From: Leptotrichia trevisanii DSM 22070
GTDB lineage: Bacteria > Fusobacteriota > Fusobacteriia > Fusobacteriales > Leptotrichiaceae
Assembly (NCBI RefSeq): GCF_000482505.1
Contig: NZ_KI519446.1
Coordinates: 1-33,468, forward strand
Direction of reading: 5' to 3'
DNA length: 33,468 nt
Made by a program: the position numbers and the translations under genes. Position 1 is the first letter of the stretch. Each line of letters opens with the position of its first letter. A model generated the notes under the pieces. It was not told the origin of the DNA, ran no database searches, and saw nothing but the letters and a program-made list of their open reading frames with translations. Below, piece after piece: positions 5,358-21,330 of this stretch.

Positions 5358-5522
5358 CACAATAACAGTTATTTTAATATCTTTAATTGATTATCACTTA
5401 ATAATAGCGAAAGCTCTACGAACCACTCTCTAAAAATTTTCTTAACAGAATAAAATTTCCTTAATAAAGTTTATGCTTTCTAATGGGATTTAGTATTAAA
5501 TGAAGTTTAGTATAAAATCAAC

Positions 5523-10926: not shown

Positions 10927-11880
10927 ATGAAATTACAGGAAATAACTGAAAAATTTAACAATGAAATAAATCAGGATAAAATAAGTGCAAGTTATCTCTT
11001 TTATGGCGATAAGAGAGTTGACTTGCTTTCTTATGCACTAATGTTTTCAAAAATGATTATGACAAAGGATGTGCAGAATGACTCTGAAAAAGAGAAAATA
11101 GAACGGCTTATTAATAATTTCCAGCATCCTGACATTGAAATAATAAATAAAAGCAATGAAAACATAAAAATTAACGAAGTTCGGGAAATCATCTACTCAT
11201 CAATAGAATCTTCCTTTAATTCGCCAAAAAAAATATTTATCCTGTGCGGAATCGAAAACTTGCGAAAAGAATCTTCAAACGCTCTTTTAAAAATTTTGGA
11301 AGAACCCCCACAAAATGTATACTTCATACTTCTATCAAGAACATTAAACATCATTTCCACAATAAAATCCCGTACAATCAAATTTCATCTATCTGGAATG
11401 AACAACGATGAACTGGGAGTCAGCAAAGAAATTTATTATTTTTTTGACGGAAATGAAAATGATATTTTGGAATTTAAAAAACAAAATCTCTCACTTGATG
11501 ATATTGAATTTAAAATTAATACTGTAGAAGATATTTTACAAATTATTTTTGAGATGAAAAATTATGCAACTGGAGAACTGGTTATAAAAAATAATCTGGA
11601 TTTGACGATAAAATATAATAAAAGCATTGAATTGCTGGCACGTCGAATACGTTTTTGGGATATCGAAAATGTATATTTTTTTATAAATGAAATCGAAAGC
11701 GAACTGAAAAAGGAGAAAGAATTTCTGATAAATTTTCTTTCAAAAATCATTATAAATGTGAAGTATTCTGTGGGATCAAACGAATTAAGAAAACTGATAA
11801 ATTTGAAAAATAGCATTAGAAGCAATGTAAATGTAAAAAGTGTGATTTTTAACTTTTTTGATATTTTGCAAAGTTCTTAA
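10927..11880 (+). CDS. holB: DNA polymerase III delta-prime-like clamp-loader subunit
   Basis: This 317-residue AAA+ relative matches the delta-prime (HolB) subunit of the clamp loader. The diagnostic region is EVREII near 88-93, then IFILCGIENL near 110-119 and SSNALLKILEEPP near 123-135, followed by NIISTIKSRT, which carries the SRT/sensor-1 area. The P-loop position near residue 27 reads YGDKRVDLLSYAL instead of GxxGxGKT, and the zinc-binding cysteines are absent. It is therefore not expected to bind ATP, as is usual for delta-prime subunits. The ribosome binding site is weak (AGAGAAAATGAGAA), which may couple its translation to mreB upstream. The C-terminal half is divergent. Confidence 0.82.
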   Translation: MKLQEITEKFNNEINQDKISASYLFYGDKRVDLLSYALMFSKMIMTKDVQNDSEKEKIERLINNFQHPDIEIINKSNENIKINEVREIIYSSIESSFNSPKKIFILCGIENLRKESSNALLKILEEPPQNVYFILLSRTLNIISTIKSRTIKFHLSGMNNDELGVSKEIYYFFDGNENDILEFKKQNLSLDDIEFKINTVEDILQIIFEMKNYATGELVIKNNLDLTIKYNKSIELLARRIRFWDIENVYFFINEIESELKKEKEFLINFLSKIIINVKYSVGSNELRKLINLKNSIRSNVNVKSVIFNFFDILQSS

Positions 11881-11903
11881 AACTAATTGAATAAAATTAA
11901 TAA

Positions 11904-11947
11904 TACTAAACCCCATTTAAAAATAGGAATATATTTTTATAATGGGG
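11904..11947. repeat. Short MITE-like palindrome after holB
   Basis: ATACTAAACCCCATT repeats the end sequence of the element at 1238-1339. CCCCATT-TAAAAATA (11911-11925) pairs with TATTTTTA-TAATGGGG (11932-11947) around a six-base loop, with one bulged base. There is no T tract, so it is not a classical terminator, though it could stop transcription or protect the mRNA 3' end of the mreB-holB unit. Confidence 0.6.
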
Positions 11948-12047
11948 ATATTTAATAACTAATTTATAATCATTCAATTAAATTATTTTTTAACTATTTT
12001 GATTAATAAATATTTTTTTATATTATTATATTTTTTCTTTTTATTTT

Positions 12048-12169
12048 CGTAGGATTGCTCATTGCCGCAAATCCTACAACCTATGGCTAGTCTACGACAT
12101 TTATTCTGTACTGACAAAAAACTCGCTGTGCTCAAACAGTTTTGCCAGCACAGAAAAATGCTCCGACGG
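12048..12169 (+). repeat. Structured repeat, copy A (left arm of an inverted pair)
   Basis: A first hairpin has stem GTAGGATT (12049-12056) and AATCCTAC (12070-12077) around a 13-base loop. A linker with CTATGGCTAG follows. A second hairpin pairs 12104-12119 with 12140-12155 (14 of 16 pairs; the two exceptions are A-C on this strand and would be G-U on the other). Inside it lie AACTCG and CTCAAACA. The copy ends with GCTCCGACGG (12160-12169). The first 51 bases match copy A' at 12658-12708 in inverted orientation at 48 of 51 positions. Confidence 0.85.
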
Positions 12170-12352
12170 ACTTAGTTTATAAAAAATGAAAATCATATTT
12201 TAATTATTTGAAAATATTAGGTTTTTATTCTTTTCTAGAAAATTTTGTAATAAATCTGTTATTTAAATAGAAAATAATATTAATTTAGACTACTCTGTTT
12301 AATAATTGTTTATTTAATTTAATTTAATTTTATTTATATTTAGTTTTTTTAT

Positions 12353-12510
12353 GTAAAGGTATCAAACACCATGCCCTTACAACCCCGCTTCTCGAATTTC
12401 AATTTTACAGTAAAAGACAAAACTCGCTTTTAACAAAAGTAATTTTAATTTCATAAGGTTATTACCAACTTAAATATAATAGAAAAGCTCAAACAAGTTG
12501 TCTTTTACTG
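12353..12510 (+). repeat. Structured repeat, copy B
   Basis: The head hairpin pairs GTAAAGGTAT (12353-12362) with ATGCCCTTAC (12371-12380) around CAAACACC, with one A-C and one G-T. After AACCCCGCTT comes a long hairpin: CAGTAAAAGACAA (12408-12420) pairs perfectly with TTGTCTTTTACTG (12498-12510). Inside that stem, AACTC and CTCAAACA flank a further 6-bp stem (GCTTTT 12426-12431 with AAAAGC 12483-12488). The element lies between the two inverted copies A and A'. Confidence 0.8.
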
Positions 12511-12581
12511 AAAAATTAGAATCTCGAAAATTTATAATAACTATTTTTCTTTAACTAAGATAAATTTTTTAGTTTTAAAAA

Positions 12582-12708
12582 CCGACGGAGCTTTTATTTG
12601 TTCAACTACGACTATTTGACGACTGGAAGGAGGAGTTTCGTAGTTGGGCAAATAAAAGTCGTAGTCTAGCCATAGGTTGCAGGATTTGCGGCAATGAGCA
12701 ATCCTGCG
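12582..12708 (-). repeat. Structured repeat, copy A' (right arm of an inverted pair)
   Basis: Read on the minus strand it starts with the 51-base block shared with copy A (12658-12708), including hairpin stems GCAGGATT and AATCCTGC. The variable hairpin follows: CTTTTATTTG pairs perfectly with CAAATAAAAG (12649-12658 with 12591-12600), then AACTACGA with TCGTAGTT (12638-12645 with 12604-12611). An inner AACTC and TCAAATA are also present. It ends in GCTCCGTCGG (complement of 12582-12591). The variable hairpin has no sequence similarity to that of copy A yet pairs fully. Confidence 0.85.
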
Positions 12709-12863
12709 AAAAATAAAGAAAAACATAATAAAAATAGTAAAAACTATTATTAAACAAAATAATCTAATATTAAATCCTGTTAAGAGCAAGAAATTTTAAT
12801 TCTTTGATAAATATATTTAATTCAAAATTTATTAAATATACACTATTTGAATGGGAAATAATA

Positions 12864-13724
12864 TTAATTTTTATCTTTTACTATCGGAACCCAAAGTTCC
12901 ATTTCATAGTCAGAACTATACATATCTCCTTCACCATAAACTTCAAAATCAGGTGTTCCAGCGTGTCTGTAACCTTGTTCTGGGAAAAATGTCCCTGTCA
13001 CATATTTCCATCCTTCATGAATGCAATTTGGAACAATTCCCTTCAATTTTACTACAGCATATTCAGCTTCTGGAACTTCAAGTATATTAAGTCCCAAATC
13101 GTTTGCTTCGGTAACATTTTGAATATCGTATCCAGCCATATAGTTTACAGTAAACTTGCTTTCACAATTTTCATTTTTCTCAATTTCATAGCAAGCTCCA
13201 TAACTTTGTCTATTTCCTAAATTTTCTAATTTTTCTGGAGATACTTTTTTAAAAAGTTTATCCCAGACATTAGGAAAATCACCACCTTCTTCAATTCTTT
13301 CCACCAATCCTGCAATTTTAAAAGCCGATTTTTTCATAACTTTGATGTCCATATTTTTTCCTCCTTCAATACTTAAAGATAATCTTATAGGAGAAAAAAT
13401 TTGAAATGCACTTCCTTTTCTGACTTCCTTTGGTGTGTATCCATGAAATTTCTTGAATGCCAAGGAAAATGAATCTTGAGATTCATAGCCGTATTTAAAG
13501 GCTATTTCTATTATCTTTTCATCGCTTTCACGTAAATCTATCGCAGCACAGCTCAACTTTCTAAAGCGAACATACTCGCTTAACGGATAATCCACCATAA
13601 TTGAGAACATTCTGCTAAACAGCGGATACGAATATCCAGAAAGCAATGCAATCTTTCTCTCGTCAATTCTATCAGTCAAGGTATCTTCGATATATTTCAT
13701 CGTTTCATTAAATGCCTTAATCAT
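12864..13724 (-). CDS. AraC-family regulator with GyrI-like effector domain
   Basis: This 286-residue cytoplasmic transcription regulator carries a DNA-binding domain of two helix-turn-helix units at residues 1-105. The second recognition region is the stretch IIEIAFKYGYESQDSF followed by FKKFHGYTPKEVR, the standard AraC ending. A C-terminal domain of about 125-286 has the GyrI/effector-binding layout seen in Rob- and BmrR-like sensors (KVMKKSAFKIAGL start, WDKLF near 153-157, EVPEAEYAVVKLKG near 216-229, E-LWVPI end). Such proteins usually sense small hydrophobic or cationic compounds and activate efflux or detoxification genes. AGGAGG precedes the ATG. No obvious target operon is adjacent, so it may act elsewhere. 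Confidence 0.88.
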   Translation of the reverse strand: MIKAFNETMKYIEDTLTDRIDERKIALLSGYSYPLFSRMFSIMVDYPLSEYVRFRKLSCAAIDLRESDEKIIEIAFKYGYESQDSFSLAFKKFHGYTPKEVRKGSAFQIFSPIRLSLSIEGGKNMDIKVMKKSAFKIAGLVERIEEGGDFPNVWDKLFKKVSPEKLENLGNRQSYGACYEIEKNENCESKFTVNYMAGYDIQNVTEANDLGLNILEVPEAEYAVVKLKGIVPNCIHEGWKYVTGTFFPEQGYRHAGTPDFEVYGEGDMYSSDYEMELWVPIVKDKN

Positions 13725-21227: not shown

Positions 21228-21330
21228 TTTATACTCAATCTCATTTAAATAAGGAATTTATTACAAACTTTTCCAACAAAGGATAAAAACCTGGTATTTC
21301 CAAATAATTAAAATATAATTTTTTAGTTTT
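21228..21330. repeat. MITE-like dispersed repeat, copy 2
   Basis: It aligns along about 90 bases with 1238-1339 (TTATACT start, CATTTAAATAA, AATTTATTA, TTTTCAACAA-like stretch, TATTTC-AAATAATTAAA). Its CCCC has decayed to TCTC and its right end is not recognisably inverted, so it looks older or truncated. Confidence 0.5.

Follow-up and report, generated by a model that had tools for sequence, protein, structure and literature searches.

Within one intergenic region of Leptotrichia trevisanii DSM 22070, two inverted repeats share their ends and form long hairpins in between. The question is what has kept these hairpins, and on which molecule they act. The window, meaning the whole stretch of DNA that was analysed, comprised 33,468 nucleotides (contig NZ_KI519446.1) of a 2.85 Mb genome that holds dozens of copies of the module described below. 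The original prediction concerned copies A and A' and held that structure, and not sequence, is being kept.

Copies A, B and A' in the window

The shared ends were as predicted. Read directly from the sequence, the 51-nt ends of A and A' differ at 3 positions (48/51 shared), the pair T12050-A12076 in the head stem of A is C-G in A', and GCTCCG(A/T)CGG is present at 12160-12169 (+) and 12582-12591 (-). The third difference, T12091 in A and A in A', pairs with the A/T site of GCTCCG(A/T)CGG, so all three end differences lie in paired positions. GGATTGCTCATTGCCGCAAATCC gave 2 exact matches and none in 100 shuffles, and GCTCCG(A/T)CGG reached at least 2 matches in 3 of 100 shuffles. The match between A and A' is therefore not due to chance.

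Each copy is a module made of a 20-bp stem with a cap (P2), which a linker joins to a second hairpin (P1). Module A (type I, 12048-12169) folds on the minus strand, where it gave an R1 match of 2.2e-25. Its P1 hairpin (12049-12077, minus) shows pair changes on both sides across copies. Its P2 (12098-12160, minus), supported by fixed-register pairing and by the G·U and A·C counts, consists of a 5' arm at 12160-12141, the cap at 12140-12121 and a 3' arm at 12118-12098 with 1 inserted base. Module A' (type II, 12582-12708) folds on the plus strand (R1 match 1.6e-26; z -6.7). Its P2 (12591-12658, plus) has arms at 12591-12610 and 12639-12658 around the cap at 12611-12638, and its P1 (12679-12707, plus) was seen in the A' fold and as helix 4 of a 96-copy alignment. 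On the folding strand, all 20 of the 20 P2 positions pair in A'. In A the fixed-register count falls to 17 because of the one-base insertion in an otherwise 20-bp stem.

A and A' were both more stable than shuffled sequences (RNA z -4.5 to -6.7). Folding was far stronger on the strand opposite to the one first described, which is minus for A (-45.3 vs -34.7 kcal/mol) and plus for A' (-51.9 vs -37.7 kcal/mol), since A·C mismatches become G·U there.

Between A and A' we observed a further module, B (12353-12530, minus), absent from the original prediction. It coincides with inverted repeat I3 and folds with -47.1 kcal/mol (z -4.5). Its P1 (12353-12380) has a different stem, and its P2 arms (12396-12420 and 12498-12522) enclose a cap with a long insert.

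The proposal that A and A' form the unit had to be abandoned. B and A', arranged tail to tail, make up the natural inverted pair: the orthologous locus of a related genome (G013) contains B and A' without A, and dozens of copies in another Leptotrichia genome (G010) have this same tail-to-tail order. The composite B(+)/A'(-) spans approximately 12285-12767 with no strand of its own and corresponds to inverted repeat I2. Its outer arms (12285-12341 and 12711-12767, 57 nt) are 72% complementary. Copy A looks like a separate insertion beside this composite.

The locus is flanked by a DNA polymerase III delta-prime-like gene on one side and by a convergent AraC/GyrI-type regulator gene on the other, and its content differs between relatives. 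Two genomes (G004, G009) have about 100 bp with a terminator-like hairpin at this site. In G005, A ends after 12105 and is fused to B sequence, and in G011 and G006 another element of the same superfamily is present. The relatives' terminator-like hairpin, AAAATGGGAAATAAACTG...TCTCCCATTTT, was not found in the intergenic region of the window. Positions 11880-12864 hold mobile elements where several relatives have a terminator-like hairpin between the convergent genes (L195, L196).

Pairing, strand and cap

The inner arms of A and A' had been described as paired and as unrelated in sequence. The pairing stands, while the second part does not: when read from the tail to P1, types I, II and III have P2 arms that can be aligned gap-free on either side of a common cap. 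Common to all three types are closure by ACU, a bulged UU on the 3' side and another 20 positions. Between subfamily I, to which A belongs, and subfamily II, to which A' belongs, 10 of the 20 P2 pairs changed on both sides and none on one side. The type II consensus has one broken P2 pair. When arms were exchanged among the three types, only 10-13 of 20 positions paired.

The expectation that other copies would pair was borne out. We collected arm pairs by cap and linker, not by pairing, which gave 82 distinct instances after one misfit was excluded. In fixed register they contained 1328 Watson-Crick pairs, 201 G·U, 8 A·C and 83 other combinations. Distinct single changes from a Watson-Crick consensus led to G·U 26 times and to A·C 6 times (binomial p = 0.0003 if independent), where the copies share ancestry and both pairing and change counts are non-independent events. 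Covariation was strong in two alignments. Among 17 copies, 95.8% of the cells were paired (71.7% when shuffled, 40-50% when slid). Among 96 copies collected with a covariance model the value was 94.5%, compared with 70.6% when shuffled, in an alignment that is fitted to the model and so biased towards it. P1 pairs with changes on both sides numbered 8 of 10 among the 17 copies and 10 of 10 among the 96.

It had also been noted that the A-C mismatches of copy A would be G-U on the other strand. This generalises to the whole family, and the excess of G·U over A·C (201:8) in the tail-to-P1 reading shows that the fold is maintained on a single strand, minus for A and plus for A'. Double changes, strand asymmetry and fixed register agree in direction. 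Because of this G·U signature, the simplest account is that the fold acts as RNA. We estimate at roughly 60% the probability that A, B and A' are one structured module, carried on short non-autonomous Leptotrichia elements and acting as RNA. Transcription through the element would make the module RNA, and the conserved cap would serve as a putative protein docking site.

The main claim, that the structure persists while the stems change in sequence, thus held up. The contrast of structure with sequence was too strong, as there is high conservation in the cap, in the linker and in the loop of P1. The cap reads ACUGUYUGA-small helix-GAGUUU and is nearly invariant, in a model that was built from copies collected by this same motif. 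Heads with differing stems have a common loop, whose RNA-strand form is near UGGCGNNUGA; module B is one of these heads. The helix inside the cap spans 7 to over 60 nt and varies in sequence. At its closing pairs, GC/GC is replaced by AC/GU and by GU/AC without loss of pairing, and type II has G-A as the second. This helix, which flanks the two GA positions, stays paired in most copies. The two GA positions are nearly invariant, and tandem G-A/A-G positions surround the small interchangeable helix.

A kink-turn consists of tandem sheared G-A/A-G pairs beside a 3-nt bulge and kinks on Mg2+ or L7Ae. The arrangement in the cap may be called kink-turn-like by analogy, since it resembles the kink-turn or box C/D-like internal loop in having GA and GA on opposite strands by a short helix, with a one-sided unpaired stretch. 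It differs in that the bulge would be 5 nt (UGUYU) and not 3.

Some copies (L010-L019, L059 and others) have an optional extra domain, P1b, between the linker and P1. Its mini-hairpin AUUGC-GUA-GCAAU corresponds to AGUGC-GUA-GCACU in another subfamily, with both stem sides changed and the loop kept.

Element backbones and genomic placement

The module was found on at least two backbones. The first has TACTAAAC ends and 3-bp target duplications. Alignment of the flanks gave a non-coding repeat of about 390-480 bp with TACTAAACNCCATTTAAA at both ends, 327-483 bp long in full single-module copies, and this end had 79 matches in the genome compared with 2 for the reversed control. Across species, a filled site (AAACTCA-element-TCACTAACAG) and an empty site (AAACTCACTAACAG) revealed a duplication of TCA, and a second locus gave a 3-bp TTA/TAA duplication. 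Duplication of TA, as in the IS630/mariner type, was ruled out by the empty sites, which point to 3-bp TNA. From the terminal repeats and the duplication at filled and empty sites it follows that A lies within a MITE-like element at 11903 to about 12286 (plus), which has 89% identity to positions 1-378 of a 390-bp element consensus. Its left terminal repeat (11903-11921) is ATACTAAACCCCATTTAAA, and the right end is degenerate near 12286.

Further TACTAAAC terminal repeats or remnants without the structured module were seen in the window at 1240-1258, 5478-5513 and 21231-21249. Elements of 136-143 bp with the same terminal repeats, likewise without the module, occur at G000:C3:38620-38755 (L145), G000:C13:52281-52417 (L135) and G000:C11:22619-22761 (L154). 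At L213, two TACTAAAC terminal repeats have a DDE_Tnp_1 insertion sequence with GGGCGTGTCTGA ends nearby.

The second backbone, present in dozens of copies in G010, is a composite of two modules, one type III-like and one type I-like, placed tail to tail. It is a different backbone with the same module. These composites are 432-481 bp long, have no coding capacity and end in GATGGTTTAAAA...TTTTACTCTGTC; the left end GATGGTTTAAAAATTTTAGGGG occurred 59 times in G010 and not at all in the control. Perfect target duplications of 9-12 bp, mostly 10, flanked 13 of the 15 copies with both ends. A burst of near-identical composites with 10-bp duplications (L264-L283, L379-L408) suggests recent activity. 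A TATAAT-like box in the centre of G010 composites was missing from some copies.

With their short length, lack of coding sequence, inverted terminal repeats, target-site duplications (TCA and TTA/TAA, or about 10 bp in the composites), high copy number and intergenic position, these elements have the defining features of MITEs. The 3-bp TNA duplications recall, we assume, the IS5-family MITEs of the IS1031/IS427 type. Unlike MITEs, they have an interior that is a conserved strand-specific fold, and no transposase with TACTAAAC ends was found among the PF01609 transposases of the genus. A search of these transposases, of kb-scale terminal-repeat pairs and of 30 G010 loci yielded no autonomous relative with the same ends. 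The PF01609 transposases were rejected as mobilisers, as they carry other ends. Those terminal-repeat pairs of L. hongkongensis and of oral taxon 879 that lie 1.7-2.0 kb apart were rejected as autonomous copies, as they contain host genes (glycosidase-like and MATE-like transporter, named by eye).

These ends bear on whether the fold could act as single-stranded DNA. In that case a recombinase or HUH-type transposase would recognise one extruded strand, by analogy with REP/RAYT and integron attC sites. The module is mobile, its inverted pairs recall BIMEs, and hairpins of DNA likewise accept G·T more readily than A·C, so that a single-stranded DNA fold would give the wobble-based strand preference as well. 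The REP/BIME repeats with RAYT (E. coli PU-BIME, PMC2267715) are likewise intergenic hairpin repeats, present in hundreds and in inverted pairs. The module elements differ from them by target duplications, terminal repeats, two hairpins and an invariant cap, and the REP/BIME-RAYT system is marked by absence of target duplication and by a hairpin recognised by Y1 HUH, whereas here target duplications are present. Two points speak against single-stranded DNA: inverted-repeat ends with 3- or 10-bp duplications are typical of double-strand DDE transposition, and the two modules of a tail-to-tail composite fold on opposite strands. We consider a role as single-stranded DNA unlikely, though it is the chief competitor of the RNA reading.

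The RNA reading was also compared with a role for the host, in which intergenic modules would, for example, mark 3' ends, act as insulators or stabilise mRNA. Placement is in keeping with such a role: 107 of 109 modules are intergenic, just 1 of 87 lies between divergent genes, and at the window locus elements occupy the site of the relatives' terminator-like hairpin. Against it, modules in tandem gene pairs lie on the same and the opposite strand equally often (34:34), and their presence at a given locus differs between species. No intrinsic terminator (GC hairpin with U tract) was found in 11850-12900, and promoter-like sites showed no excess (10 vs 7.5 +/- 2.8). The RNA reading is itself weakened by this lack of promoter excess, by the incomplete retention of the TATAAT-like box and by the failure of the above searches to reveal an autonomous partner. 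The inconsistent orientation and the single divergent site also do not fit a cis-regulatory RNA such as a riboswitch or leader. Intergenic placement, balanced orientation and the lack of terminators or promoter excess together argue for a selfish or element-serving role and not for cis-regulation. Since the module sits on unrelated backbones, with 3-bp and 10-bp duplications, we regard it as the element's cargo or helper, not as a regulator for the host, and find a host function improbable. Very improbable is that mutation alone keeps the stems, with template switching perfecting quasi-palindromes: it would explain why both arms change together without function (I vs II: 10 double, 0 single), yet it would erase both kinds of mismatch, whereas G·U persists and few A·C are seen (201:8), and the loops are almost invariant.

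Distribution and the cap beyond Leptotrichia

Hundreds of copies of the folded module, which is probably made as RNA, were found in 13 Leptotrichia genomes. When 98 Fusobacteriota genomes were searched with the full model, 12 of the 13 Leptotrichia gave strong matches and the remaining one (G012) weaker ones. Two taxa, L. hongkongensis and Leptotrichia sp. oral taxon 879, carried the head pattern, with a few isolated exact matches elsewhere. The plasmid and phage collections searched gave no match.

No Rfam family matched the window; other hits were far below the gathering threshold, and modules at other loci were unmatched. In the open literature we found no paper on Leptotrichia MITEs, and the letters of the cap appeared in no relevant setting. 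Mobile/repeat sequence candidates (MRSCs) have been described from genomes that include L. buccalis, and MRSC-65-2, the example published there, consists of one stem and has UYCCGG repeats (PMC11109978). As a multicopy structured motif with strong covariation and an orientation inconsistent with genes, the module belongs among MRSCs as that paper defines them, and MRSC is a category, not a homology family (PMC11109978). Its two hairpins and GA-cap set it apart from MRSC-65-2. Our claim of novelty is therefore limited, because the module may match an unnamed MRSC in the supplement of PMC11109978.

The cap alone was multicopy in several other Fusobacteriota genera, where the control was clean in most, and also occurred in a few IMG/VR contigs of varied GC. 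At cap-only sites, 21 of 24 distinct stems paired at 7 or more of 9 positions, compared with 12% when arms were swapped; these sites may be homologues or instances of a recurrent motif.

In other Fusobacteriota the cap sits on hairpins with unrelated stems (L297-L308, L314-L328, L347-L366), and in three genomes (G056-G058) it belongs to another multicopy element. In the IMG/VR contigs (L344-L346, L367-L378) it tops long multi-helix hairpins, and in several cases CTTGATTTTTTTGGTTCTTTT-like sequence follows.

A tentative idea, for which we would give less than even odds, is that distant bacteria share a mobile RNA that has this kink-turn-like cap (ACUGUYUGA-helix-GAGUUU) on wholly different stems and that travels on unrelated transposon backbones. 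It would then be an RNA-level parasite or helper common to several non-autonomous elements, and it would depend on an RNA-binding protein of the host or the transposon.

Structured repeats such as REP, BOX and the 'mobile/repeat' motifs are common, and whether their folds act as RNA or DNA, and to whose benefit, is mostly unsettled. With hundreds of copies, 13 genomes, two backbones and a strand signature, the module offers an unusually clean test case, and its cap a handle in the search for its protein partner and for related modules in other phyla. If the RNA is confirmed, bacterial MITEs would carry selected RNA, which would suggest that RNA assists small transposons in moving or takes part in silencing them.
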